From contig CALKGK010000036.1 of the NCBI GenBank assembly GCA_938085105.1, positions 1 to 64,000 on the forward strand: a stretch of DNA of 64,000 nt. The letters run 5' to 3'. The notes beneath the pieces are model-generated. The model had not been told where the DNA came from. It saw only the letters and a program-made list of their open reading frames with translations, and searched no databases. The position numbers were made by a program, and so were the translations under genes. This document shows, piece after piece, positions 58,517 to 64,000 of the stretch; position 1 is the stretch's first letter; each line of letters opens with the position of its first letter. The DNA comes from an uncultured Flavobacteriales bacterium. Its GTDB lineage: Bacteria; Bacteroidota; Bacteroidia; Flavobacteriales_D; Sanyastnellaceae.

Positions 58517-58626
58517 AACCTTCACTGAGGGGCAGCAAGGAATGTGCTCACAAATTCATCTTTTTTTGGCACGCGGATTGGTATACTTTGAATATGAATT
58601 AACTTTAGCCACTCAATACGAGCAAC

Positions 58627-59652
58627 ATGAAAAAAGTTCTTTTACCTATCCTTACCCTTTTCACCTTCCTTGGCATGCAAGCACAAGAAGCTGCCACGGT
58701 TGTTTTTACTGAAAATGGAGAGCTATTCACCCTTTATCTTAACGGAGTGAAGCAAAACGAAGCCCCACAAAGCAGCATCGAACTCAATGACTTGAAGATG
58801 GAGTTCTATCAATCACGCATTGATTTTGAAGACCCTGCTTTTGCTGATTTTTCGAACAAAAACTTCGCCGTCAAAAAAGGCATGGTTGTGAGCTACATGA
58901 TCAAACGCAACCGCAAAGGAGAATTCGTGCTTCGCTACCAATCGGAAACAGCAATGACTGACGAACAAGCAGCTCCGGCATTGAGCACTCCTCCGAGGCC
59001 AGCACCACCGACGAGTCCGACTCCCGTTATGGAAAGAACGGAAACAGTACAGGAAACCGTGATTGAAACAGAAACCGGAGTTGAAAACGTCAACATCAGC
59101 ATGGACATGCCAGGTGTAAGCACAACGACAACCAGCACCACCACAACGGTGAAATCTCCAAATGGGGAAAAAGTAAAAATCGATTTAAAGGTTCCTGGTG
59201 TTGATGTAAAATTCGACGTAGATATGGACATGGGAATGGGTGTAGAAATTCGCGAAGAATCAAGCGTTACGACAACGACAACCAGCCAAACCAGCAGTGG
59301 AGGTGTTCAACCTAGAATGACCACCGGTGTCTGGGTGGATGAGGAAGTGGAAGAAATACCGGATTGCTCCGTAGCTTCAAGCGACTTCTCCAAAATGAAA
59401 GCTGCAGTGGATGCTAAAACTTTTGCAGACAGCAAGATGACCACTGCGAAGCAAGCCACTAAAAACAAGTGTTTAACTTGCGATCAAATCAAGGCCTTGA
59501 TGCTCCTCTTTACCTTTGAGGACGATAAACTTGAATTTGCTCAGTATGCTTATGACAATTGTGCTGACAGAGATAACTACTATCTCGTGTACGATGCTTT
59601 TGAGTTCGAAAGCAGCATTGATGAGCTCAATGAATACATTGAAATGAGGTAA
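58627..59652 (+). CDS. DUF4476 exported protein with Thr-rich middle
   Basis: A 341-residue protein with signal peptide (about residues 1-19, ending GMQAQ). The N-terminal part (20-110) has an unrecognised beta-rich region; the middle (about 120-240) is low-complexity with poly-Thr runs (STTTTSTTTTV, VTTTTTSQTSS) and a VDMDMGMGV stretch; the C-terminal about 90 residues (from CSVASSDF) are a DUF4476 domain (KMTTAKQATKN..CLTCDQIKALMLLFTFE). DUF4476 proteins occur in exported Bacteroidota proteins of unknown function. It lies 24 nt before the CsgG lipoprotein gene, possibly in one transcript. Confidence 0.78.
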   Translation: MKKVLLPILTLFTFLGMQAQEAATVVFTENGELFTLYLNGVKQNEAPQSSIELNDLKMEFYQSRIDFEDPAFADFSNKNFAVKKGMVVSYMIKRNRKGEFVLRYQSETAMTDEQAAPALSTPPRPAPPTSPTPVMERTETVQETVIETETGVENVNISMDMPGVSTTTTSTTTTVKSPNGEKVKIDLKVPGVDVKFDVDMDMGMGVEIREESSVTTTTTSQTSSGGVQPRMTTGVWVDEEVEEIPDCSVASSDFSKMKAAVDAKTFADSKMTTAKQATKNKCLTCDQIKALMLLFTFEDDKLEFAQYAYDNCADRDNYYLVYDAFEFESSIDELNEYIEMR

Positions 59653-59676: not shown

Positions 59677-61050
59677 ATGAAATTCTCTCGCTTCATAACA
59701 TATCTCCTCTGTATCGCATTGCTCTCCTCTTGCGCTACTTCCAAATCGTTCCAAAAGAAAGGTTCGAAGCTGGAAGAAGCAGGAATGGTGGAAGAAGCGG
59801 CAAACATGTATTATGTTGCTCTTCAGAAAAACCGAAACAATGTAGATGCTAAAATTGGAATGAAGAATACCGGGCAAGTTGTTTTGAACACCTTGCTGAA
59901 CGACTTCACCCAGAAAAAGGTTTTTGGAGATAAAAAAGAAGCCATCAACGCTTGGGCAGAAGCCATGAAGTTGAAAGACAAAGTGGCCAATTTAGGGGTT
60001 CAGCTCGATGTTCCTGAAATGTATCGCAAAGACTACGAGATGGTGAAAAGCGATTACGTAACGGAACTCTATGAAGAAGGTCTTGATTTAATGGATCAAG
60101 GTGAATTTCAGGAAGCTGAGAAACGTTTTGTCGAAATCAAAAAGCTCGATGCCAACTTTGAAGATGCTCATGAGTTGGCTGATGTAGCCTACGTTGAACC
60201 GATCTACATGAATGCTGTGAAAGCTTACGAAAACGGTCAATACCGCAAAGCTTACAATCAATTCAACAAAGTAATTTCGAGAAAATCAGAGTACAAGGAA
60301 GCAAACATTCTCAAGCAATCTGCCCTAGACAATGGTTTGTTTACCATGGCGCTATTGCCATTTGAGAACGGCACCCGAATCTCCGGTCTTGAAGTAAAAA
60401 TGAGTGCTTACACCTTGGAGGCGCTCACTTCTGCAAACGATCCATTTTTGAAGGTGGTTGATCGAGACAACATTGAATTGATTCTTGAAGAACAGAAATT
60501 GGGTCTTTCGGGAATCATGGATGAGCAAACAGCTGTATCAGTAGGGCAAATCATTGGTGCTCAAGCCATTATTTCTGGAGCGATCTTGAGTTATTCTGAA
60601 AGCATTGGACGACCTCAACGCTACAATCGGACAGGTTATGAGCAATATCGAGTGAAACGTGTCAACGAGGAAACTGGAAAGAGCTACTACCAAACGAAGT
60701 ACCGTCAAAAGAACTATGACGAGTTTGTAGGACAGAATTTAGTTACGGTTTCCTTCCAGTATAAAGTGGTAAGTCTGAAAACTGGCGAAATCCTAAAGTC
60801 TCGAATCATTGAGCGTGAATTGAAAGATGAAATTCACTACGCTTATTACGATGGAGACATGCGCAACCTCTACCCTGCTGGAAACAGTGGAGTGAATACC
60901 TCACGCAATGCGAAAAACCAACTTGCCGCTTTGTTCAATGCAAGAAGAGAGTTAAAAACGGTCGATCAATTGTCCAATGACGCTTTTCAAGACTTAGGAA
61001 ATGAGATGCGAAGAGACATAGAAAAACTCATGACAGAACTGGTTCAGTAA
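59677..61050 (+). CDS. TPR-CsgG/LpoB-like outer-membrane lipoprotein
   Basis: A 457-residue lipoprotein: signal with lipobox LLSSC|A (Cys at about 19). Residues about 20-220 are TPR-like helices (EEAANMYYVALQKNR, KAYNQFNKVISRKSEYKEANIL). From about 225 a CsgG/LpoB-type domain follows: MALLPFENGTRISG, LKVVDRDNIELILEEQKLGLSG, AQAIISGAIL. CsgG forms an outer-membrane nonamer for curli; LpoB activates PBP1b. The next gene starts at TAATG (shared base), so translation is coupled. First gene of a lipoprotein trio. Confidence 0.85.
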   Translation: MKFSRFITYLLCIALLSSCATSKSFQKKGSKLEEAGMVEEAANMYYVALQKNRNNVDAKIGMKNTGQVVLNTLLNDFTQKKVFGDKKEAINAWAEAMKLKDKVANLGVQLDVPEMYRKDYEMVKSDYVTELYEEGLDLMDQGEFQEAEKRFVEIKKLDANFEDAHELADVAYVEPIYMNAVKAYENGQYRKAYNQFNKVISRKSEYKEANILKQSALDNGLFTMALLPFENGTRISGLEVKMSAYTLEALTSANDPFLKVVDRDNIELILEEQKLGLSGIMDEQTAVSVGQIIGAQAIISGAILSYSESIGRPQRYNRTGYEQYRVKRVNEETGKSYYQTKYRQKNYDEFVGQNLVTVSFQYKVVSLKTGEILKSRIIERELKDEIHYAYYDGDMRNLYPAGNSGVNTSRNAKNQLAALFNARRELKTVDQLSNDAFQDLGNEMRRDIEKLMTELVQ

Positions 61051-62411
61051 TGAAATTAAAAACACTCATATCTCTTTTATTGACCTTGGTCTTGGTGTCT
61101 TGCGCTTCCAGAAAAGTACAGGAAACGGTGGTTCCCAAACCTACGTGGGTAGATCAGCGTCCGATAGACAACGCTTACTACATTGGAGTGGGTTCTGCGT
61201 CCAAACAAATGGACCCGTTGAACTATGCCCAAACCGCTAAGAAAAATGCTCTGGACGATCTGAGTTCTGAGATCAGCGTCACCGTTAAAAGCTCTTCTTT
61301 CCTGAACACCATGGAAACGAACAACTTTTTTCGAGAAGAATTCACATCCAACATTGCCACATACACTGATGAACGTATTGAAGGTTTTGAAGTTGTTGGC
61401 GCTTGGGAAGACGAGCAAGATTATTGGATTTTTTATCGATTGTCAAAGTCAAAGCACGAAGCCATAAAGGCGGAAAAAAAGCGTTTGGCCATGAACAGTG
61501 CAGCCAACTTTTACACCAAAGGTAGAAGTGCCGAAGCTGAAGGAAACCTCAGCGCTGCTTTTGACCTCATGTTCCGTGGTTTGTTTGAACTCACGGCGTA
61601 TTGGAACGAGGTAAACGAATACTCTTATGAAGGTAGAAATGTATTTTTAGACAATGAGATTTTCAGTCATCTCAGACAGATGATCAACAACCTCGATCTT
61701 AAAATTACACCTGAAGCTTTGGTTTTGAACCCTGAAAACGGATTTAAAACCGAAGCCCTGGTTTCGCTCACCTTGGATGGAAAACCGGTGCCCAATGTTC
61801 TTCATCGATACAAATTCGACGATGGCAGATACAAGCGATTTAAAGAATTTCGAACCGATGCGAGTGGTTATGCCTCATTACCTATTCGTGAAGCCAACCC
61901 GAAGAACTTCAACAACGAACTGGAAGTGAGTCTTATCTTGGACGACCTCGTTCCAAGCGATTTGGATCCTCAGCTCATTCAACCCTTGGTGGAGACCTTG
62001 CAGCGTCCGAGCACTAGAGTATCCATCTCCATGGAAATGCCCGTGATATATATGCTCAGCACAGAGAAAAACTTGGATCAGGAAGAGCAAAAATGGCTCG
62101 CCTCGGCCATGACAAAAAAACTCAGCTCTGAGGGGTATGTATTCACTGAGCGCATCGATCAAGCGGATTATCTTGTATACATTTCAGCTGAAACCAGAGA
62201 AGGCGGAACATCTCAAGGTTTTCATGTGGCCTACTTGAACATGAATGTACAAGTGAGAACCCACAACGATGATATTATATATCAAAGTAATCTGAACGAC
62301 ATTAAAGGTTTGCAGCTCAATTACCGCGCAGCAGGCATTGAAGCATTTAAAAAAGGCGCCAAGCAACTAGAAAAAGACATCTGTAAAGATATTGTAGATG
62401 CAATTTTTTAA
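61050..62411 (+). CDS. LPP20-like lipoprotein
   Basis: A 453-residue lipoprotein with lipobox LVLVSC|A (Cys near 18). The LPP20-like region (about 30-130) has PTWVDQRP, YYIGVGSAS and TAKKNALDDLSSEISVTVKSS. A second region at the C-terminus (TEKNLDQEEQKWLASAMTKK..) has conserved helices and strands of unknown family. Coupled to the CsgG-like gene by TAATG; overlaps the preceding open frame of the next gene. LPP20-family proteins include FlgP of flagellar outer-membrane rings; no flagellar genes are present here. Confidence 0.75.
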   Translation: MKLKTLISLLLTLVLVSCASRKVQETVVPKPTWVDQRPIDNAYYIGVGSASKQMDPLNYAQTAKKNALDDLSSEISVTVKSSSFLNTMETNNFFREEFTSNIATYTDERIEGFEVVGAWEDEQDYWIFYRLSKSKHEAIKAEKKRLAMNSAANFYTKGRSAEAEGNLSAAFDLMFRGLFELTAYWNEVNEYSYEGRNVFLDNEIFSHLRQMINNLDLKITPEALVLNPENGFKTEALVSLTLDGKPVPNVLHRYKFDDGRYKRFKEFRTDASGYASLPIREANPKNFNNELEVSLILDDLVPSDLDPQLIQPLVETLQRPSTRVSISMEMPVIYMLSTEKNLDQEEQKWLASAMTKKLSSEGYVFTERIDQADYLVYISAETREGGTSQGFHVAYLNMNVQVRTHNDDIIYQSNLNDIKGLQLNYRAAGIEAFKKGAKQLEKDICKDIVDAIF

Positions 62412-62451
62412 TTTGGCACAGTTTATGAATTATCCGAATCAAACAAGCGAC

Positions 62452-63042
62452 ATGAAAAAATTCACTTCAACCAGAAATTTGAGCTTCCTATTGGGAATGT
62501 TCATTTTATCAATAGCTTTCACAAGCTGTAAAAGAAACAAAGGAACAGAAGAGCCAAAACAGCCGGCTGGAGAAGTTCTTATTAACGAGTATTGCTCAGG
62601 AGACAAGTACTATTCAGACAACAAGACTTTTAGAGCTTCAGCTACTGGAGAGTCCATGAGCAGAGAAACGGCGAAGAAAAAAGCACGTTCAAATGCTGAA
62701 GACGAATTAGCAAGAACCATCTCTTCTACGCTTCAAATTGTAACTGATAATTACGTAAACTCTTCTACCTTCAATAACAAAGAAGAAGTTACTGAGACCT
62801 TCAACAACTTGGCAAGAACTGTAGTTGATCAGAAGCTTAGAGGTGCCATCACTATTTGTGAGCAAACCACTCAGAAAGCCAATGGTAATTACGTGAATTA
62901 CATCGCCCTTGAATTATCAGGAGATGACATTGCACAAGCTTACAATGAAAGCTTATCGAAAGACGAGCGCATCAAAGCAGAGTACAACTACGAAAAGTTC
63001 AAGGAAACTTTTGAAGCAGAAATGGAAAAACTAGGAAACTAG
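62452..63042 (+). CDS. LPP20-like lipoprotein (small)
   Basis: A 196-residue lipoprotein: signal MKKFTSTRNLSFLLGMFILSI with lipobox FTSC|K. Mature part starts GDKYYSDNKTFRASATGES, then TAKKKARSNAEDELARTISST, close to the corresponding part of the larger LPP20-like protein upstream. ATG 62452 is chosen because it starts the signal peptide; an earlier open codon at 62398 overlaps the upstream gene. Third of the lipoprotein trio, closed by a terminator. Confidence 0.75.
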   Translation: MKKFTSTRNLSFLLGMFILSIAFTSCKRNKGTEEPKQPAGEVLINEYCSGDKYYSDNKTFRASATGESMSRETAKKKARSNAEDELARTISSTLQIVTDNYVNSSTFNNKEEVTETFNNLARTVVDQKLRGAITICEQTTQKANGNYVNYIALELSGDDIAQAYNESLSKDERIKAEYNYEKFKETFEAEMEKLGN

Positions 63043-63064: not shown

Positions 63065-63092
63065 AAAGACCTCCATTGTGAGGTCTTTTTTT
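63065..63092 (+). terminator. intrinsic terminator of the CsgG/LPP20 unit
   Basis: AAAGACCTC pairs with GAGGTCTTT around loop CATTGT, followed by a T run. Confidence 0.9.
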
Positions 63093-63131
63093 TTGCTAAC
63101 CTAAACTATTGTGCCTCAATACCTCTTTTCG

Positions 63132-63139
63132 TATTTTTG
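63132..63139 (+). promoter_or_regulatory. -7 element TATTTTTG with TTG -33 box, before the last gene
   Basis: TAnnTTTG match with TTG at 63109-63111, 20 nt upstream; 16 nt before ATG 63156. Confidence 0.65.
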
Positions 63140-63155
63140 GGGTCTATATTATAAT

Positions 63156-64000
63156 ATGAAAAACCGGTCTACCCTCCTCCTTTTCATTGCTGCCTTTTGT
63201 GCATTCTCCTTGTTACCGCACTCCTCTTTTTCTCAAGTTTTTGGAACGCCCCTCTATGAATGGAACTTTACTTCTGGAATTCCGGCAGATTGGGAAAATG
63301 AAAGTGAAGATGGCGTTTCTGAATGGGAGTATCGCGGACCGAATACGACTCCTTCAAATGCCATTGCATCTCGCGGCTCTTGTGCTTCCAGTTCCGTTCC
63401 TTTGGCCTCTGAAACTCTCGCCGATGGTTTTCTCATTTTCGATTCGAATTATTGGGATGATGATGGAGGTGCATGTGGCGGGAACATCGGCGGGGGCCCA
63501 GCACCTGGACCACATCTAGCTTGGCTTACGACCAATAGTTTTAGCCTTGCTGAAAACCCAGAAGCAACGTTAACCTTTCAACAACAATATAAGCACTACC
63601 TCTCTGGAGGAACCACCTCCACAACAAAAGTATATATATCCATCGATGGAGGTGAGTTTGAACTCTTGCTTGACAATAGCTCGGAAGGAATTTCAAACTC
63701 AGAAAATGTGGAGTGGGTTTCGATTCCTCTTACAACCATCGCCGGAGGTTCAAGCGATGTTCGAATACGGTTTGAATTCTCTGGTTTCTACTACTGGTGG
63801 ATGATTGACAATGTAGTTGTTTTTGAACCGAGTGAAAACGACCTTGTGCTCTACAATGCGAACTACAGCACCTTCGTCCAAAATCTTGAAAATATCTTCT
63901 TTGATCAGGAGTACAATTTCTATCCACTCAACATGATCCCGCAGTTGGAACTCAGTGCACGCGGACAAAATATTGGCGGACAAACACAAACCAACACCAA
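63156..64000 (+). CDS. large secreted surface protein, N-terminal part (runs off the window)
   Basis: ATG 63156 opens a frame with no stop to position 64000 (at least 281 residues). Signal peptide MKNRSTLLLFIAAFCAFSLL..SFSQ, then YEWNFTSGIPADWENESEDG, a pattern typical of cleaved-adhesin/MAM-like jelly-roll domains in T9SS cargo of Bacteroidota; FSGFYYWWMIDNVVVFEP closes that domain at about residue 225. The T9SS C-terminal domain would lie beyond the window. Function unknown; adhesion or surface coat is inferred from the domain type. Confidence 0.8.
   Translation, partial: MKNRSTLLLFIAAFCAFSLLPHSSFSQVFGTPLYEWNFTSGIPADWENESEDGVSEWEYRGPNTTPSNAIASRGSCASSSVPLASETLADGFLIFDSNYWDDDGGACGGNIGGGPAPGPHLAWLTTNSFSLAENPEATLTFQQQYKHYLSGGTTSTTKVYISIDGGEFELLLDNSSEGISNSENVEWVSIPLTTIAGGSSDVRIRFEFSGFYYWWMIDNVVVFEPSENDLVLYNANYSTFVQNLENIFFDQEYNFYPLNMIPQLELSARGQNIGGQTQTNT

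Follow-up and report, generated by a model that had tools for sequence, protein, structure and literature searches.

A three-gene lipoprotein operon of aquatic Flavobacteriales with domains of the FlgT, FlgP and CsgG types, putatively under sigma-54 control

Rings of LPP20, FlgP and FlgT proteins are known as accessories of the flagellar motor. PelC, a dodecameric exopolysaccharide outer-membrane lipoprotein, and CsgG also form rings associated with the outer membrane. E. coli LpoA (TPR-like) and LpoB (TolB-N-like) reach through the wall and activate penicillin-binding proteins (PBPs). In Vibrio the H-ring is made of FlgO, FlgP and FlgT (PMC6375700). FlgP and FlgT, both relatives of LPP20, form outer-membrane-associated rings (PMC12222027). 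Here we compare with these systems three tandem lipoprotein genes read from the + strand (positions 59677-63042) of a stretch of 64,000 nucleotides, hereafter the window, which belongs to contig CALKGK010000036.1 of an uncultured Flavobacteriales bacterium (assembly GCA_938085105.1). No published description of this operon was found in the literature searched.

The reading that we prefer, while giving it slightly less than an even chance, is that these genes specify a scaffold of periplasm-facing lipoproteins, probably an oligomer, set on the outer membrane and controlled by sigma-54. This scaffold is possibly tied to peptidoglycan. The genes are the following:

59677..61050, + strand: gene 1, a lipoprotein of 457 amino acids with TPR and a CsgG/PelC/FlgT-M-type domain (Pfam, AlphaFold2 model)
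61048..61052, + strand: TAATG, overlapping stop and start of genes 1 and 2 (sequence)
61050..62411, + strand: gene 2, a lipoprotein of 453 amino acids with LPP20, Ig/MG4-like and TolB-N/CsgG-type domains (Pfam, model)
62452..63042, + strand: gene 3, a small lipoprotein with a divergent LPP20 domain, its start corrected (LPP20 matched in 25 of 29 homologues)

A signal peptide with a lipobox is read from the sequence in each product (LSSC, LVSC and FTSC in genes 1, 2 and 3 respectively), so that the three lipoproteins announced by the preliminary description of this DNA are indeed there. In Bacteroidetes, export of lipoproteins to the cell surface depends on acidic residues that follow the lipid cysteine (PMC5080379). 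Two acidic residues at positions +2 to +5 occur in no homologue of gene 1 or gene 2, with the proviso that a few of their rows were counted from a cysteine of the signal peptide in place of the lipid one, and in 2 of the 29 homologues of gene 3, a protein which carries a run of lysines after its lipid cysteine. As the acidic export signal is lacking, the lipoproteins are predicted to face the periplasm.

The first gene had been described as coding for a TPR-CsgG protein, and Pfam agrees: TPR is matched, and CsgG (PF03783) is matched at E 1.2e-9 with 38.3 bits for a cut-off of 20.8, which makes the protein a member of the family. All 28 homologues match the same model at E <= 1, and the CsgG core GSIIGY...STGEIL corresponds to GAILSY...KTGEIL in gene 1. 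The AlphaFold2 monomer (predicted local distance difference test score, pLDDT, 87.8) combines a helical TPR arm with a C-terminal alpha/beta domain. The best structural match of this domain is FlgT-M (Z 14.7, root-mean-square deviation (rmsd) 3.5, 146 residues aligned), tied with the PelC dodecamer (Z 14.5, rmsd 2.2, 126 aligned); CsgG (Z 12.7) and the TolB-N matches come below these two. PelC, however, has neither the TPR arm nor the long hairpin of gene 1. In the model this tyrosine-rich beta-hairpin, an insert of 60 residues, occupies the position of the first membrane hairpin of CsgG. Unlike that of a CsgG channel, it is strongly charged (11 K/R and 6 D/E in a region of 62 residues), and a complete second hairpin is missing from the monomer model; each subunit of the curli secretion channel has two beta-hairpins that span the membrane. 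The hydrophobic alternation of the beta-strands scores comparably to CsgG, which leaves a barrel undecided and was not used as evidence. Direct hhalign against the single E. coli CsgG sequence gave 2%, an uninformative value.

Gene 2 codes for a chain of domains: LPP20 at residues 31-131, two helices, an Ig/MG4-like domain (about 213-330; Z up to 10.9) and a TolB-N/CsgG-type domain (about 330-453), in a model of pLDDT 86.7. Its N-terminal domain is a clear member of LPP20 (PF02169; E 6.6e-15, 55.8 bits, cut-off 25.9), and all 29 homologues match; the two domains that follow set it apart from that family. Over residues 42-453 the model aligns with FlgT (3w1e residues 1-263) at Z 10.3, covering its N domain and then its M domain without a change of order, and likewise with a chain of the LPHT ring (8z5n chain 0) at Z 9.9. 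The model thus predicts for gene 2 the arrangement of FlgT, an LPP20-like N domain followed by a TolB-N-like M domain. Weak matches in the PDB of the LPP20 stretch taken alone, and of gene 3, were judged to be due to chance.

Gene 3 is more divergent. It reaches LPP20 at E 0.012 and 16.4 bits, under the cut-off of 25.9, and its 25 matching homologues do so weakly; profile-profile comparison (hhalign) with gene 2 nevertheless gives a probability of 92%. By its sequence it is LPP20-like, outside the family by the curated rule, so that of the two LPP20-like proteins of the preliminary description one stands as a family member and the other as a relative below the cut-off. The TAKKxAR..A..L..ISS motif said to be common to both needs a similar correction: the profile alignment pairs TAKKNALDDLSSEIS of gene 2 with KARSNAEDELARTIS of gene 3, and the domains look homologous, but the two TAKKs lie four residues out of register. 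That one of the two arose by duplication is not supported here, given the great divergence of the domains and the occurrence of genes 2 and 3 without gene 1 in another lineage. In addition to its lipid cysteine, gene 3 has invariant cysteines at positions 48 and 136, and its C-terminal helix is highly conserved and rich in invariant positions.

Taken together, these proteins resemble the Vibrio H-ring in being encoded by three genes, in their common folds (LPP20/SHS2 as in FlgP, LPP20-like then TolB-N-like as in FlgT) and in their association with the outer membrane. They differ from it by the TPR repeats of gene 1 and by the Ig-like insert of gene 2, which has no counterpart of FlgT-C. The set of domain types resembles FlgP plus FlgT, and this is a stronger likeness than that of any single domain. 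Profile searches do not extend it to membership: the FlgO model is not among the matches listed for the trio proteins and their homologues, and FlgT_N gives marginal matches only, with 1 of 29 members of gene 2 and 2 of 29 of gene 3, at E about 0.04. The comparison with FlgO and FlgP made from the sequence is thus kept in its structural part (gene 2 aligning with the N and M domains of FlgT, the best match of the gene 1 domain being FlgT-M tied with PelC) and given up as regards the FlgO and FlgT profiles. The genome has no member of FliF, the sole flagellar family searched for. Within this scope the earlier remark that flagellar genes are not visible is upheld, and membership of a flagellar motor is rejected. 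Since the proteins fail profile membership and FliF was not found, we call the trio H-ring-like, not an H-ring; by analogy, it may act like one. The curli system is rejected as well, CsgF having no match in this genome, which is 99% complete.

Conservation argues that the three genes belong together. Among 60 related genomes, which are mutually related and do not make 60 independent tests, gene 2 is present in 46, gene 3 in the same 46 (strong matches, E < 1e-70), and gene 1 in these too, except for the fragmented assemblies G021 and G027, where only its paralogue is found; the remaining 14 have none of the three. Presence follows families f1, f2, f4, f5 and f8 as one block. Because this pattern of presence and absence is common to the three genes across the 60 genomes, the trio is not a chance grouping. 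Every locus fetched shows the order 1-2-3, and the genes are adjacent wherever the contig is intact. The 80 loci collected are all from Bacteroidota, nearly all of them metagenome assemblies labelled Flavobacteriales; blastp finds all three genes in 65, and many of the others are truncated by contig ends. The group of Flavobacteriales in which the three lipoproteins are invariably found together lives in the sea and in fresh water. Mean column identity is highest for gene 3 (62%), followed by gene 1 (55%) and gene 2 (47%).

Further away, a survey of 198 genomes across the phylum found relatives of gene 3 in 8 and of gene 2 in 14. Both genes are present in f19, a family of three genomes from another lineage of the same class, and in the one inspected (L152) they are adjacent, gene 1 being absent. 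Gene 3 stands ahead of gene 2 in loci L104, L107 and L113. Since genes 2 and 3 occur without gene 1 in other lineages, they look like the core, which gene 1 looks to have joined in a subset of lineages, unless it was lost elsewhere. A separate genomic distribution of the three genes had been named beforehand as evidence that would count against a joint complex. Within the relatives there is no such separation, but L152 makes gene 1 dispensable in other lineages.

The second line of evidence concerns regulation, and the elements around the genes are best listed here:

58565..58580, + strand: sigma-54-type -24/-12 site TTTGGCACGCGGATTG, proposed head promoter (pattern match, intergenic, 46 nt before the DUF4476 start codon)
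58627..59652, + strand: DUF4476 protein with a signal peptide (PF14771, E 7e-23; 24 nt gap to gene 1)
62412..62427, + strand: sigma-54-type site TTTGGCACAGTTTATG, proposed internal promoter of gene 3, directly after the gene 2 stop
63065..63088, + strand: intrinsic terminator, a stem-loop with a 9 bp stem and a T run (sequence)

Genes 2 and 3 are separated by sequence that otherwise aligns poorly yet contains TTTGGCAC. Upstream of gene 3, TTGGCA is found in 74 of the 80 loci, against 5% of background bins. The sigma-54 reference pattern is TGGCAC-N5-TTGC, in which the GG and GC elements are a fixed distance apart; among the 74 internal sites GG is invariant, and the -12 G stands at sigma-54 spacing in 70. 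At the head of the operon, 29 of 57 relatives have a comparable site, against 4% for the background windows, and in several of them the -12 element is the canonical TTGC; L152 has a sigma-54-type site ahead of gene 2. The genome codes for RpoN (core-binding domain, E 1.7e-57) and for sigma-54-activator domains, three of them strong matches, with weaker ones besides. A scan for E. coli-type sigma-70 promoters gave matches at chance level, and one for the Bacteroidota -33/-7 pattern (TTG...TAnnTTTG) gave none before genes 1 or 3. Genes for envelope stress, quality control, gliding and exported proteins are driven by sigma-54 promoters in Flavobacterium psychrophilum, and mutagenesis has verified one of these promoters (PMC9723704).

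As for the boundaries of the transcript, the operon outlined in the preliminary description is right for the trio and for its shared terminator, while the DUF4476 gene and the two sigma-54-type sites had been overlooked. The DUF4476 gene precedes gene 1 in 28 loci and is probably the first gene of the operon. Coupling by TAATG, thought to join all three genes, holds for genes 1 and 2, which share 4 nt or 1 nt in 33 of the 60 loci of relatives; gene 3 is separated from gene 2 by 40 nt here and by 40-353 nt (median 55.5, zero overlaps) in the 60 relatives. Its start is set at 62452, because the ATG at 62398, which falls within gene 2, lacks a directly following signal sequence, and because relatives keep the 62452 start; from there the N-terminus reads MKKFTSTRNLSFLLGMFILSIAFTSC, a typical lipoprotein signal.

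A few observations touch on relatives and neighbours of these genes. Contig 16 (G000:C16:10634-11968, L115) encodes a second lipoprotein with TPR and a CsgG-type domain, which has 26% identity with gene 1 and stands alone between coaE-like (dephospho-CoA kinase-like) and rpe-like (ribulose-phosphate epimerase-like) genes and with no LPP20 partner. Contig 37 has a weak paralogue of gene 3 (G000:C37:42485-43036; L148:7486-8037), an LPP20-like lipoprotein found in most relatives without trio partners. Within 250 nt upstream of either paralogue there is no sigma-54-type site. In a distant Bacteroidota genome an LPP20 domain is fused to an ARPP-1 domain (L151:7086-8996), and L157 has a similar relative of gene 2, of 636 amino acids. 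The N-terminal domain of an MltC-like transglycosylase (L149:9111-10325) resembles the LPP20/SHS2 topology by eye. In L165, L166 and L170 further intergenic TTTGGCAC-N7-G sites precede, by 50-110 nt, genes whose N-termini resemble signal sequences; these genes may belong to the same sigma-54 regulon. Downstream of the trio (window 63111-64000, L116) we noticed by eye a series of exported proteins, along with one that is PorP/SprF-like (L116:11088-12086); they suggest type IX secretion.

If the scaffold reading is right, genes 1 and 2 would be made at matched levels through translational coupling, and gene 3 from the operon as well as from its own sigma-54 promoter. This would suit the most abundant building block, a second promoter fitting a part that is needed in excess. 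FlgT/FlgP and PelC suggest, by analogy, that the parts would come together in rings or arcs beneath the outer membrane, an assembly that would be neither a flagellar part nor a curli channel, and the operon would be switched on together with other sigma-54 envelope genes.

Several points weigh against such a scaffold. Ring formation we infer by analogy alone, and oligomerisation, promoter activity, abundance of gene 3 and function are likewise inferred. The TolB-N/CsgG fold is also found in lipoproteins that are not known as ring formers, LptE for example. The alignment of gene 2 with FlgT has an rmsd of 25, because the domains are displaced, and a Z near 10 is middling. The ring-forming hairpin of FlgP sits between the LPP20 helix and the second strand, where part of gene 2 has a pLDDT below 50. 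Gene 1 is absent in other lineages. As regards regulation, the -12 element of the internal site is mostly TG[A], not TGC, and the sigma-54 motif is not enriched genome-wide (27 matches versus 42 in the control); the sigma-54 claim therefore rests on positional conservation, a lone site meaning little. We regard as unlikely the boldest form of the proposal, a sigma-54-controlled, non-flagellar outer-membrane ring of Bacteroidota made of FlgT/FlgP/CsgG-type lipoproteins. Such a ring would either use the motor-decorating parts independently or be their non-flagellar relative, and it might link peptidoglycan remodelling to the outer membrane.

The main rival, which we hold to be rather unlikely, makes these proteins peptidoglycan regulators: wall-spanning outer-membrane lipoproteins that would activate a PBP or a lytic transglycosylase, gene 1 merging domains of the LpoA and LpoB types. 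TPR-like and TolB-N-like parts on lipoproteins are indeed what LpoA and LpoB offer. It owes its rank to matches of the LpoB model with 24 of 28 gene 1 homologues (best E 9.8e-7), beside CsgG, and to a transglycosylase neighbour: in L149, which is a distant genome, the orthologue of gene 2 (E 2.6e-100) adjoins an MltC-like lytic transglycosylase, in the vicinity of an SH3/M48 peptidase and of two further LPP20-type genes. In a second distant genome, L154, an SH3/M48 gene is close to an LPP20 pair. CsgG, however, outscores LpoB, and gene 1 of the window stays under the LpoB cut-off (PF13036; 14.6 bits for 22.3); the transglycosylase link is seen in one genome only, and no wall enzyme is present among the Pfam-scanned neighbours in the window. 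The PBP-activating complex first suggested for this operon finds some support in the LpoB-model matches and in the transglycosylase neighbour.

It is quite improbable, we think, that the products are separate periplasmic lipoproteins of a sigma-54 envelope-stress response, with no common complex. The presence of envelope stress functions and of exported proteins of unknown function in flavobacterial sigma-54 regulons (PMC9723704) speaks for this; against it, the genes co-occur perfectly and are translationally coupled, as would be expected if they had a joint product. Finally, a CsgG-like secretion channel whose substrate is unknown, in which gene 1 would form the pore and genes 2 and 3 would supply accessory proteins, appears very improbable despite the CsgG matches of every gene 1 homologue and the place of the tyrosine-rich hairpin, given the charge of that hairpin, the lack of a full second one in the model, the absence of CsgF from the genome, and the fact that no curlin-like substrate was noticed nearby.

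Returning to the scaffold that we prefer, its interest would lie in where it is found. A conserved set of the same domain types in bacteria apparently without flagella would show that these parts have a job other than motility, and the trio is a testable candidate for a sigma-54-controlled envelope function in aquatic Flavobacteriales.

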